DNA of 45,704 nucleotides from NCBI GenBank assembly GCA_012033195.1, contig JAAUSQ010000010.1:1-45704 (forward strand). The letters are read 5' to 3'. Shown here one piece after another: positions 23,279 to 28,666 of the stretch. The notes beneath the pieces were generated by a model, which searched no databases, was not told the origin of the DNA, and saw nothing but the letters and a program-made list of their open reading frames with translations. The position numbers and the translations under genes were made by a program. The stretch is from Chloroflexaceae bacterium. Lineage in GTDB: Bacteria > Chloroflexota > Chloroflexia > Chloroflexales > Chloroflexaceae. Every line of letters starts with the position of its first letter. The stretch's first letter is position 1.

Positions 23279-23548
23279 ATGGTACGTGTATATGTGGCTG
23301 AGCATTGCCTCGGTTCGCAACGGGCACAACGATTGGTAGCGCAAGTTCGGTTATGCTATCCTGATGCAGCACTGGAAATTGTAGATATAACGATACCGGG
23401 CACGGTGATACCGCCTGAGATTTTTGCAACACCGATCTATACCTGGAACGATCACATTATCTTTCTGGGCAACCCGAGCGAAACTGCCCTGCTGGATTAC
23501 ATAAGGAGAGATTATGAGTACAACGGCCATCGACACCAGCGCAACTGA
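23279..23548 (+). CDS. Small thioredoxin-fold protein, CxxS type
   Basis: An 89-aa protein starting MVRVYVAEHC with GAGGG 7 nt upstream. A thioredoxin-like pattern is seen: beta strand, C10-L-G-S13 in place of CxxC, and a cis-Pro-like ATPIYTW near 60-66. A single Cys favours a glutaredoxin-like monothiol or non-redox role. Its end overlaps the start of the crp-like gene by 35 nt; the last ~10 residues look unlike the family and the natural stop might be slightly earlier if an indel error is present. It is co-transcribed with the regulator. Confidence 0.65.
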   Translation: MVRVYVAEHCLGSQRAQRLVAQVRLCYPDAALEIVDITIPGTVIPPEIFATPIYTWNDHIIFLGNPSETALLDYIRRDYEYNGHRHQRN

Positions 23549-24247
23549 AGAACCGTCTTTTAATAAAACGGCCTACCTGCAAACGATTGATATCTTCCAG
23601 GATTTGGAACAGAGCGAGGTGGATGCGTTGGGCAAACGCACGCCGATGCAGCGGGTCAGGCCGGGGACGGTTTTTTATTCGCCGGAGCAATCTGCCGAAG
23701 TGCTCTTTATTTTAAAAGAAGGTCAGGTGCGGTTGTATCACCTCTCGCCGGAAGGCAAAGAGTTGACCACCGCAATCATTGACCCTGGTACTATTTTTGG
23801 CGAGATGGCGCTGCTTGGTCAGAAGCTCCACGAGAGCTATGCGGTGGCGCTATCGCCCTGCCTGCTCTGCCTGATGAGCCGGGAAGACGTGAAGCATGTG
23901 CTGTTGAGCGATCCGCGTGTTGCCGCTCGCATTGCCGAAATCCTCGGCAATCGCCTGATTGATGCACAGCGCCGTCTCTCCGATTTTGCCTTCAAGAATA
24001 TTCCGCAACGGCTGGCAAGCGTGCTGCTCGAACATGCCCGCCCTCCCCGGCGGCGGTTGTTCCGCAGCCCCGAAAGCGAGCTTGAGTGCCCTTCACCCAC
24101 GAGGCAATGGGGGCGCTGGTTGGCACGCACCGCGAGACCATCACCAAGATATTAAACGATCTGCAACATCAGGGTATTATCGAACTGCGGCGGGGTCGGG
24201 TGCTGATCCTCGACCCGGAACGGTTGCGCGCCTGTAGTCTGTCGTAA
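23514..24247 (+). CDS. Crp/Fnr-family transcription regulator (frameshifted)
   Basis: AAGGAGAG precedes ATG 23514. A cyclic-nucleotide-binding-fold domain (~25-145, with PGTIFGEMALLGQ) is followed by a long dimerisation helix. The frame breaks at CCC 24089-24091. One added base gives ELECPFTHEAMGALVGTHRE, a winged helix-turn-helix recognition motif, then ITKILNDLQHQGIIEL and a wing, for ~244 aa ending at TAA 24247. No FNR-type Cys cluster is seen at the N-terminus, so it is probably not an oxygen-sensing iron-sulfur FNR. Effector unknown. It is translated with the preceding thioredoxin-like gene. Confidence 0.87.
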
Positions 24248-24255
24248 GCGGGGCG

Positions 24256-25304
24256 CTACACAATCTCAATCCCTGGTGCGGCAATAACCGCGCCGATACG
24301 CCAGATCGGGAGCGCTTCGGCGGCGAAGGCGGCCTCAAGCTGTGCGGCGGCTTCGGGTGCGACGGCAAACAGCAACCCGCCCGATGTCTGCGGGTCGAAT
24401 AACAACAGCTTGCGGCCTTCGTCTATTGCCGCTCGATAGCGCACATAGCCATTCTGTTCAACAAAGTCTTTGTTGCGGAACAGCCCGCCCGGTGCAATGC
24501 CGCCCTGGGCATAGTCGAGCGCACCGGGCAGCAACGGCAGTGCCGCTGCCGCAATGCGTAGCCCAACGCCACTATTACGGGCAATTTCGGCACCGTGCCC
24601 CAGCAACCCATAGCCGGTAATATCGGTGGCGCTGTGGAAGCTGCCGTGTGGGAGTGTCTGGGCAAGCTCAGCGGCGCGTTTGTTCAGCCGCAGCATGCTC
24701 TGCGTGGATGCGTCGATATGGGCCGCCTGTACCTGCCCACGCTTGAGCGCCGTACTGATGATGCCCGTGCCAAGCGGCTTGGTGAGCAGCAGCACATCGC
24801 CAGGGCGGGCGTTGGCCTTGGGTGTGATGCGGTCGGGGTGGATCAGACCGGTAACACACAGCCCATACTTCGGCTCTTGATCGACCACCGTATGCCCGCC
24901 GACAATCACCGCGCCCGCCTCGGCGACTTTGTCGGCTCCCCCTGCAAAATCGCCGTGATGATCTCAGGCGGCAGGTCGGCAGGAAAGCCCGCTACCGCCA
25001 GCGCCGTGATAGGTCGCCCGCCCATAGCATACACATCGCTGAGCGCATTGGCGGCGGCAATTGCGCCGTAGGTGTACGGGTCGTCCACGATAGGCGCAAA
25101 AAAGTCAACCGTCTGCACTAGGGCCGTCTCGTCGTTGAGACGGTACACGGCAGCATCATCGCGCACCCCCAGACCAATGATCAGGTCGGGATGGGTGGCG
25201 AATGTAATACCGGCGAGCACATCCGTGAGAGCACCCGGCCCCAGTTTAGATGCTCAACCTGCGCCGGTTGCCATATTGGTCAGGCGGATCTGTTCATGTG
25301 ACAT
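24256..25304 (-). CDS. selD: Selenophosphate synthetase, probable selenoprotein (frameshifted)
   Basis: SelD makes selenophosphate from selenide and ATP. The start [16 protein letters not shown] leads to a TGA at codon 17 (25254-25256), then [15 protein letters not shown]. The TGA is exactly at the catalytic Cys17/Sec position of SelD (family GAGC/U-x-x-K), so I read it as selenocysteine. A second frame break lies in a C5 run (24938-24942); one added base gives [20 protein letters not shown], the normal sequence. The repaired protein is 349 aa, the usual length. Other motifs: [23 protein letters not shown] and the C-terminal DPQTSGGLL. No other selenium genes (selA, selB, selC, mnmH) are in the window. 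TGGTATATT lies 3 nt before the ATG. Confidence 0.88.
25214..25237 (-). promoter_or_regulatory. Candidate bacterial SECIS hairpin in selD mRNA
   Basis: Starting 17 nt after the UGA, CGGGUGC (25237-25231) can pair with GUGCUCG (25220-25214) over 7 bp including three G-U pairs, leaving a 10-nt loop UCUCACGGAU. Position and size fit bacterial SECIS elements that recruit SelB, but the pairing was done by hand and the G-U content makes it weak. Confidence 0.4.
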
Positions 25305-25383: not shown

Positions 25384-26034
25384 CTACCGTCCCTCGGCTT
25401 CGGCCAGTATTTCGGCAAAGCCTTCGCGCCAACCGGGTGAAAGCGTTTCGATGGCTTCGGCACGGCGCAGCAGTTCGACATTCGTTTTGTCGAAGTAGTA
25501 CAGGTGGTTGATCTGGCGCACCGTCAGGCTGTCGGGTGGCCGCGCAACCAGTTCGATCTGGTCGCCTGCGCCTACCTCGCCCGCTTCGAGCACCCGCACA
25601 TAAAACCCGACCATGCTACTTTGCAAAAACGGCTTGAGAAAATCGGGTGCGCCCATGCGGATGCCAAGCTTGAAGCACGGCGAACGCGGCTGGCTCACCT
25701 CGACCAGCGCCGCCCCAAAGCGGTAGCGGTCGCCAATAGACACGCTGTCCTCGTCCATCCCTTCAACAGTGAAGTTCTCGCCAAACTGCCCCATCGTGAA
25801 ATCGTCGCGGCCCAGTTCGCGCTGCCAGTAGGCATAGTGGGCTAGCGGGTAGATATACGCCGCTTTGTGCACGCCACCGTGTGCAACCAGATCGGCCTGC
25901 CCGTCGCCGTCTAGGTTCAGGCGGCGCAACATCACCCGCCCGTCGATTGGCTCCTTAAAGATGCCTGTGGAAACCATCCGCCCACGATACTCAATCTCGG
26001 TGGGCATACTCACATTGACAGAATGAATACGCAT
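25384..26034 (-). CDS. MOSC domain protein (YiiM-like)
   Basis: A 216-aa MOSC protein with the early HGGVHKAAYIYP motif and the conserved Cys in QPRSPCFKLG (~124). MOSC domains, relatives of the molybdenum cofactor sulfurase C-terminus, carry sulfur or transfer oxygen from molybdenum centres; YiiM-type members reduce N-hydroxylated compounds. AAGGA precedes the ATG, which begins 13 nt after the zwf stop, so it is the third gene of a gnd-zwf-MOSC operon. The substrate is unknown. Confidence 0.88.
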   Translation of the reverse strand: MRIHSVNVSMPTEIEYRGRMVSTGIFKEPIDGRVMLRRLNLDGDGQADLVAHGGVHKAAYIYPLAHYAYWQRELGRDDFTMGQFGENFTVEGMDEDSVSIGDRYRFGAALVEVSQPRSPCFKLGIRMGAPDFLKPFLQSSMVGFYVRVLEAGEVGAGDQIELVARPPDSLTVRQINHLYYFDKTNVELLRRAEAIETLSPGWREGFAEILAEAEGR

Positions 26035-26046
26035 ACCTGTTCCTTG

Positions 26047-27550
26047 CTATGCGGCACCGTTTTCGTGCAACCCACACAACCGCAGCCACCGCCGACCATC
26101 ACGGGCAACAAAACTATCGGCATCATCTGGCCCCCAACTGCCAGGTTGGTAGATGGTTGGCTTCAGGCTGTCGTTGGTTTCCCATGCCTTGATGATCGGG
26201 TCCATCAATTCCCAGGCCCGTTCAATCGCATCGCCGCGAATGAACAGCGTGGCATCACCAATGATAGCATCCATCAGCAGGCGCTCGTAGGCTTCCGGAA
26301 TGGCGGTGAACTCGCAAATATCGTTATAATGGAAGGTCATATCGACCGAGCGTGTTTCCGACACGGTACCGGGCAGTTTGGCCTCGAAGCGGAAGTGCAT
26401 ACCCTCGTCGGGCTGAATGCACAGGCTCAGCACATCGGGATTGACCGACTTACCGGGTGGCATCGGGAAGATGGTATGCGGCGGCATCCGGAACTGCACC
26501 AGTACTTCTGATACCTTGGTTGCCAGCGCCTTGCCCGACCGCAGATAGAACGGCACGCCGTGCCAGCGCCAATTATCAATATACAACCGCATCGCTGCAT
26601 AGGTCGGGGTGCGCGAACCCTCTGCAACCCGTTCGGCTTGCTGATAGCCCTGATACTGCCCGAAAACAACATTATCAAGCAGGTCGCCGTCGGTGATGGG
26701 GCGAATGGACGACAATACCTTGACCGTCTCGTTGCGGACGGCATCGGCGGAGAACGAAAACGGCGGCTCCATTGCAATCAGCGCCAGGAGTTGCAGCAGG
26801 TGGTTCTGGAACATATCACGCACAATGCCCGCGCTATCGTAGAAGCCTGCCCGACTGCCTACATCGACCTGCTCGGCAACGGTGATCTGCACATTGTCGA
26901 TGTAGTTGCGATTCCAGACGTTCTCAAACACGGTGTTGCTGAAGCGAAAGAAGGTAATATTCTGCGCCGTCTCTTTGCCAAGGTAGTGGTCAATACGGTA
27001 CACCTGATGTTCGCGGAAGTGCGAGAGCACAATGCTATTCAGCTCACGGGCCGACTCAAGGTCGTGGCCGAAGGGCTTCTCGATGATAATGCGGCGCTTG
27101 GCATCGTTGTCTTTGCTTTCTTTGGCCATCCCCACTGCCGAGAGCATTTCAACCACAGTGACATAATACTCAGGTGCGGTGGAAAGATAATACAGCCGAT
27201 GGACGGGTTGCTCTGCTTCCAGTTCACGCAGAAAGGCATGCAATCCTTCGTAGTCGGTGCCTTCGTTCAGGTCGCCCTGATAATAAAACAGGCGCGGCGC
27301 GAATTCTTCCCAGCGGGCTGCGTCGAACGTCTCGCGGGAATGTTTTCCCCCCTTCGCGCATGCGCTCCCGAAACTCTTTGTGGCTGTAGGGTCGCCGTGC
27401 AAAGCCCACGATGTGTGAGTCCATATTCAAGCGCTCTTTAATGTACAGGTTGTACAGCGCCGGAACAAGCTTGCGTTGCGTCAGGTCGCCCGACGCACCA
27501 AAGATAACAATGGTTGTTGGGGGTGATGTGCTGGCTGTGGGTGTGGTCAT
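26047..27550 (-). CDS. zwf: Glucose-6-phosphate 1-dehydrogenase (frameshifted)
   Basis: First enzyme of the oxidative pentose phosphate pathway. The NADP-binding motif [13 protein letters not shown] is near residue 17 and the substrate signature RIDHYLGKE is intact, with EKPFGHD upstream of it. The frame breaks in a G6 run (27347-27352, plus strand C6). Removing one base gives [18 protein letters not shown] and a 500-aa protein of normal length. It is the one clear insertion-type error besides E1beta. GAGGATA lies before the ATG, and gnd ends 38 nt upstream on the same strand, so zwf is the second gene of a gnd-zwf operon. Confidence 0.93.
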
Positions 27551-27588
27551 TGCTCGTATATCCTCGTTTGCTGATCTAAAAACCTGTT

Positions 27589-28497
27589 TTACAGATCTGT
27601 CTTTTTGACGACGTGCCCGCCAAACTGTCCACGCAGTGCCGAGAGCAGCTTATCGCTGAATGGTTCCGGGTCGCGGGAACGGAAGCGGCGCTGCAACGAC
27701 AGCGTGATGACTGGAATAGACACATTCAGGTCAATCGACTCCATCACCGTCCAGCGGCCTCGCCGGAGTCGGGCACATACGCGGCGATGCCTTCGAGTTC
27801 GGGGTTTGCGGCAAGCGCGGCGGCGGTCAGGTCGAGCAGCCACGAGCGCACCACACTGCCATAGCGCCAGATCTCGGCAATCTGCGCGAGGTCGAGGCCA
27901 AATTCGGTCTTGTGCTTCATCAGGTCGAAGCCTTCGGCATAGGCCTGCATCAGACCATACTCGATACCATTGTGGACCATCTTCACAAAATGACCGGAGC
28001 CAGTCGGCCCGACGTGTCCCCAGCCTTGATCGGGGGCGGGGGCCAGCGTCTCAAAGATGGGCGTGAGGCGCTCGACGGCGCAGTCTCGCCACCGACCATC
28101 ATGCTATAGCCTTCTTTCAATCCCCAGATACCGCCACTGGTGCCCACATCAACCATAAAGATACCGCGCTCTTTCAGGTGCTGACCCTGTCGAACAGTAT
28201 CGTTGTAGTTGCTATTGCCGCCATCTATCACCGTGTCACCCTCGGCAAGCAGTTCGCCGAGTTGCATAATCGTCTGCTCGGTTGGATCGCCAGCAGGCAC
28301 CATTACCCACACGGCACGCGGGCGCTCAGCTTGCTCACCATATCCGCCAGCGACTCGGCGGGGATTGCGCCGGCGGCGGCGGCGCTCTGCACAGCTTCGG
28401 CGTTGCGGTCGTACACGACCAATGTATGCCCCCCCTGAAGCAGACGGGTTGTCATATTGGCACCCATTTTGCCCAGGCCAATCATGCCCAGTTCCAT
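27589..28497 (-). CDS. gnd: 6-phosphogluconate dehydrogenase, short form (three frameshifts)
   Basis: Oxidatively decarboxylates 6-phosphogluconate to ribulose 5-phosphate. The start [15 protein letters not shown] (ATG 28497) has AAAGGAG upstream. Conserved motifs are IDGGNSNY and [18 protein letters not shown], and the signature [10 protein letters not shown]. Frame breaks at GGG 28320-28322, GG 28077-28078 and CC 27758-27759. One base at each restores [27 protein letters not shown] and [13 protein letters not shown]. The repaired length is ~303 aa, fitting the short GndA-like NAD/NADP class rather than the 470-aa form. First gene of the gnd-zwf-MOSC operon. Confidence 0.9.
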
Positions 28498-28618
28498 GTG
28501 TTTGCTCCTTTTGTCTGCGGTTGTTTGTTGTGGGCCACAATACACTGTGCCACGTGGCAGTGCTGGTGTAGCTCCGCGCGAACCTTTGAACAGGAAAGTA
28601 TGATATGACTTTAATACG

Positions 28619-28666
28619 GAACGTATCAACCAGCGTTCCATCTAGGTCGAAAATGACTGCATGCAT
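28619..28666 (-). pseudogene. N-terminal remnant of HAD-family phosphatase
   Basis: On the minus strand an ATG at 28666 opens MHAVIFDLDGTLVDTF, a textbook HAD motif I with both Asp residues. After about 16 codons the homology stops and the frame runs into the gnd promoter region without any later HAD motif in any frame. I read it as the leftover 5' end of a phosphoglycolate phosphatase or beta-phosphoglucomutase-like gene lost by deletion. Confidence 0.55.

Follow-up and report, generated by a model that had tools for sequence, protein, structure and literature searches.

The selD gene of Chloroflexaceae bacterium very probably encodes a selenocysteine-containing selenophosphate synthetase (Sec-SelD), in which the UGA at codon 17 would specify selenocysteine (Sec) instead of ending translation. 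The gene lies in a stretch of 45,704 nucleotides of contig JAAUSQ010000010.1, the whole of which is hereafter called the window. This reading is well supported at the level of sequence by the codon itself, its conservation, the decoding machinery of the genome, and the constraint on a downstream hairpin and its codons among relatives; from these we infer the actual insertion of Sec and the activity of the enzyme. An earlier note on this DNA had proposed that the organism decodes UGA as Sec, and the tRNA-Sec, selA and partial selB genes, the conserved TGA and the hairpin all support that proposal.

The gene and its internal codon are located as follows:

24256-25304, minus strand: selD, for selenophosphate synthetase (selenide, water dikinase), in two pieces that both match TIGR00476.
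25254-25256, minus strand: in-frame TGA at codon 17, very probably read as selenocysteine, at a site where 176 genes carry only TGA, TGC or TGT.

Translation on the minus strand would start at the ATG at 25304 and run through sixteen codons to the TGA at 25256-25254, so that both the coordinates and the codon number given in the earlier note proved exact. This TGA is the sole in-frame stop of the N-terminal piece and falls at the catalytic codon. When it was taken as a residue, residues 7-123 matched the selD family TIGR00476 with 160 bits (E 7e-47; cut-off 125), which corresponds to positions 1-121 of the family model; positions 132-310 are matched by the 3' piece with 188 bits, in the other frame, since an indel separates the two. 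The N-terminal part also aligned to the chain of PDB entry 3u0o, which we take to be E. coli SelD (E 1e-30), and to entries 2yye, 2zod and 2zau, presumably Aquifex aeolicus SelD (E 2e-24); both proteins have Cys where the window has UGA. Residues 1-33 align without gaps to 3u0o and residue 17 falls on Cys17 of the E. coli protein, which bears out the correspondence previously noted.

Counting the window's own gene, TGA occupies codon 17 in 48 of 49 selD genes examined from the order, with TGC in one (G027). SelD scored above the cut-off in 47 of 61 genomes of the order, with exactly one TGA in nearly every one, and selD was found in 315 of 400 genomes of the phylum, where most of the matches listed show exactly one TGA. 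In a sample of 96 genes from the phylum, in which Cys cases are over-represented as they were fetched on purpose, codon 17 is TGA in 78, TGC in 13 and TGT in 5, and among 80 genes from many phyla the corresponding figures are 47, 25 and 8. No other codon occurs at this position in the 176 genes, and the position is catalytic; the suspicion that a random stop was unlikely is thus vindicated, and on this comparative evidence the TGA is no chance stop. Among the same 61 genomes of the order, tRNA-Sec matches of at least 59 bits occur in 43 of the 47 genomes with a full SelD versus 1 of the 14 without. As a separate observation, genome G021, rated 99% complete, has a tRNA-Sec of 74.4 bits yet no full-score selD.

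The earlier note had described a frame running from ATG 25304 into a normal SelD, of which the start and the TGA stand, whereas the frame itself is broken further downstream. The features that bear on this break are:

24938-24942, minus strand: run of G that lacks one base compared with CAGGGNGGNGC in the relatives, where a frameshift, probably an assembly error, separates the two selD pieces.
26047-28650, minus strand, and 23514-24155, plus strand: split genes for glucose-6-phosphate dehydrogenase (G6PD, zwf) and 6-phosphogluconate dehydrogenase (gnd), and a shortened Crp-like regulator.

At the G run the relatives read CAGGGNGGNGCNGA(C/T)AA and the window CAGGGGGAGCCGACAA; beyond it, the other frame carries the remaining 230 residues of SelD. 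The open reading frames left are 24906-25220 and 24256-24909, so the gene as annotated would appear as two ORFs with its start lost; trouble with the start in ordinary annotation had been foreseen in the earlier note. One-base indels are frequent in this assembly: zwf is divided between two frames (27224-27550 and 26047-27402), gnd is broken into at least three pieces, the pieces of both genes match consecutive stretches of one family in different frames, and the Crp-like ORF is without its helix-turn-helix part, the DNA-binding end. Since the relatives' selD is intact at the G-run site and housekeeping genes close by are broken too, the selD frameshift is most likely an assembly error; indels so widespread in genes of central metabolism argue for such an error and against decay. 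The frameshift is nonetheless what could be said for a decayed pseudogene, in which the TGA and the broken frame would both be real damage and no SelD would be made. We consider this very unlikely, as the TGA is kept in 47 relatives of the order whose genes are otherwise intact, the protein is well conserved apart from the two sites, and the splitting of gnd and zwf and the shortening of the crp-like ORF make the indels look like faults of the assembly.

The machinery for Sec decoding was found in the genome to which the window belongs (G000; 4.8 Mb in 430 contigs, 86.9% complete), as the earlier note had suggested checking. A tRNA-Sec with anticodon UCA lies at C137:6563-6655 (64.9 bits, cut-off 47), selA at C39:340-1425 (464 bits) and selB at C107:28-1038, the latter scoring 285 bits over the first 324 positions before the contig ends. 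SECIS binding is the role of the C-terminal domains of SelB, and SelB-wing_3 was not found in the assembly, a point against the Sec reading, although it would be expected if the C-terminal half of selB, which runs into the contig end, lies in a gap. The decoding genes weigh against the idea that the TGA is a misread TGC or TGT and that this SelD has Cys. That explanation could draw on the error-prone assembly and on the TGC of G027, a relative of the same family, but the visible errors are one-base indels and not substitutions, and almost all relatives carry TGA, which makes it more improbable still than a pseudogene. Least credible of all, to the point of being negligible, is an ordinary amino acid at UGA through a genome-wide reassigned code or readthrough: the frame is indeed open through the TGA, but COX1, E1_dh and selA of this genome all terminate at TGA, so that reassignment across the genome is unlikely, the only alternatives in relatives are Cys codons, which is the pattern of Sec/Cys exchange, and a tRNA-Sec is present. 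Elsewhere in the genome TGA is an ordinary stop.

Under the preferred reading, that of a Sec-SelD, a signal for Sec insertion should be sought just after the UGA, and a bSECIS-type hairpin does follow it, as the check proposed in the earlier note would have it:

25228-25242, minus strand: apical hairpin of a putative bSECIS, which pairs in the same register in the relatives with Sec.
25215-25255, minus strand: predicted lower stem (GAGCAU/AUGUGCUC) that encloses the hairpin, a fold seen in the window only and on weaker evidence.

The putative element has a 5-bp stem, GGGGC/GCUCU, with two G-U pairs, and a loop, CGGGU, that starts 16 nt past the UGA. This layout agrees with a published bSECIS model, which describes a loop of 3-9 nt, an upper stem of 4-16 bp, a G in the first two loop positions and a distance of 16-37 nt from the UGA (PMC13188914). 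Against the Sec reading, the hairpin of the window's gene is no more stable than its shuffles (z -0.19) or than synonymous versions (z +0.38), and a longer fold of 80 nt has no special stability; an Rfam search of the window gave no match, nor did any pattern typical of a promoter or terminator stand out in it. Stronger evidence for the hairpin comes from the relatives, in which both pairing and synonymous sites are conserved where the gene carries UGA. Over 74 distinct Sec sequences, 84% of cells show the five core pairs formed (shuffle mean 78%), a level equalled by none of 2000 column shuffles; the figure for 17 Cys sequences, a control drawn mostly from other lineages, is 57%. Codon choice at the hairpin is skewed as well, Gly being GGG in 43 of 48 cases (33% elsewhere in the gene), Pro CCG in 40 of 40 (48%) and Leu CTA in 14 of 48 (4%). 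These pairing and codon counts come from related sequences, so that shared ancestry inflates them and p-values overstate their independence.

A side case is provided by the selD of G027 (locus L032), where TGC replaces TGA, the hairpin bases are kept and a tRNA-Sec is still present in the genome. To judge from these sequences, this is likely a recent Sec-to-Cys change, after which kept hairpin bases are what would be expected; hairpin remnants following such changes have been described (PMC1794560).

Sec-containing SelD, or SPS2, has been reported in prokaryotes (PMC1794560, PMC4561486, PMC13188914), the bSECIS of Sec-SelD has been modelled earlier (PMC4561486), and a 2006 study assigned three selenoproteins to Chloroflexi (PMC1794560). 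The gene in the window resembles these proteins in belonging to the same family (TIGR00476), in its catalytic UGA at the position of E. coli Cys17 and in the putative bSECIS directly downstream, and differs in that its copy in the assembly is frameshifted. The third residue before Sec is G (GAGU, compare GAGC in E. coli), whereas most of the order has CAGU. The selD of Chloroflexus aurantiacus J-10-fl (G029, locus L057; PMC3150298), of the same family by kinship, carries TGA at the same codon and is 67% identical over the N-terminal 120 residues; unlike the window's gene, its frame is intact.

Also located in the neighbourhood of the gene is:

25384-26034, minus strand: MOSC-domain protein (YiiM type), separated by 79 bp from selD, which follows downstream in the same orientation.

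A conserved MOSC-selD operon was considered and set aside, and we claim no functional link between the two genes, because a MOSC gene adjoins selD in none of 77 related loci.

Within a search limited to few families and an incomplete genome, we found one match to the Molybdopterin domain, without a TGA, no TGA-bearing member of the AhpC-TSA, CMD/AhpD or thioredoxin families, and no SelU (selenouridine synthase), which leaves SelD as the sole selenoprotein candidate from that search. That SelD is the only selenoprotein of this bacterium is a doubtful proposition; if it were so, the Sec machinery would serve, as far as is visible, to make its own supplying enzyme, with neither a formate dehydrogenase selenoprotein nor a selenouridine synthase to justify it. 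Three relatives (loci L199-L201), C. aurantiacus included (L199, 77246-77659), have a gene for an AhpC/TSA-type protein with an in-frame TGA in the motif DRFFUPHC (UxxC), which from its sequence is likely a second selenoprotein in them; the window's genome yielded no such gene.

The mechanism that we propose is the well-known one. At UGA17, SelB carrying Sec-tRNA-Sec would bind the putative stem-loop just downstream, and SelB-dependent insertion of Sec would replace termination. The Sec, placed in a flexible N-terminal loop, would act as the selenium-handling catalytic residue that is Cys in many homologues, and SelD would produce selenophosphate from selenide and ATP. Selenophosphate would in turn be passed to SelA for the Sec-tRNA required for translating SelD itself.

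That SelD can have Sec at this position is textbook knowledge; the arrangement is the norm in this lineage, the finding is correct but ordinary, and the selD of the window is very probably another member of a large known selenoprotein family. Automatic annotation of the gene will err twice, at the internal UGA and at the frameshift. For the organism, the finding indicates that UGA is decoded as selenocysteine in this relative of Chloroflexus, and for the lineage, with TGC in G027 and TGA in its close relatives, it offers a usable natural series for the study of Sec-to-Cys conversion.
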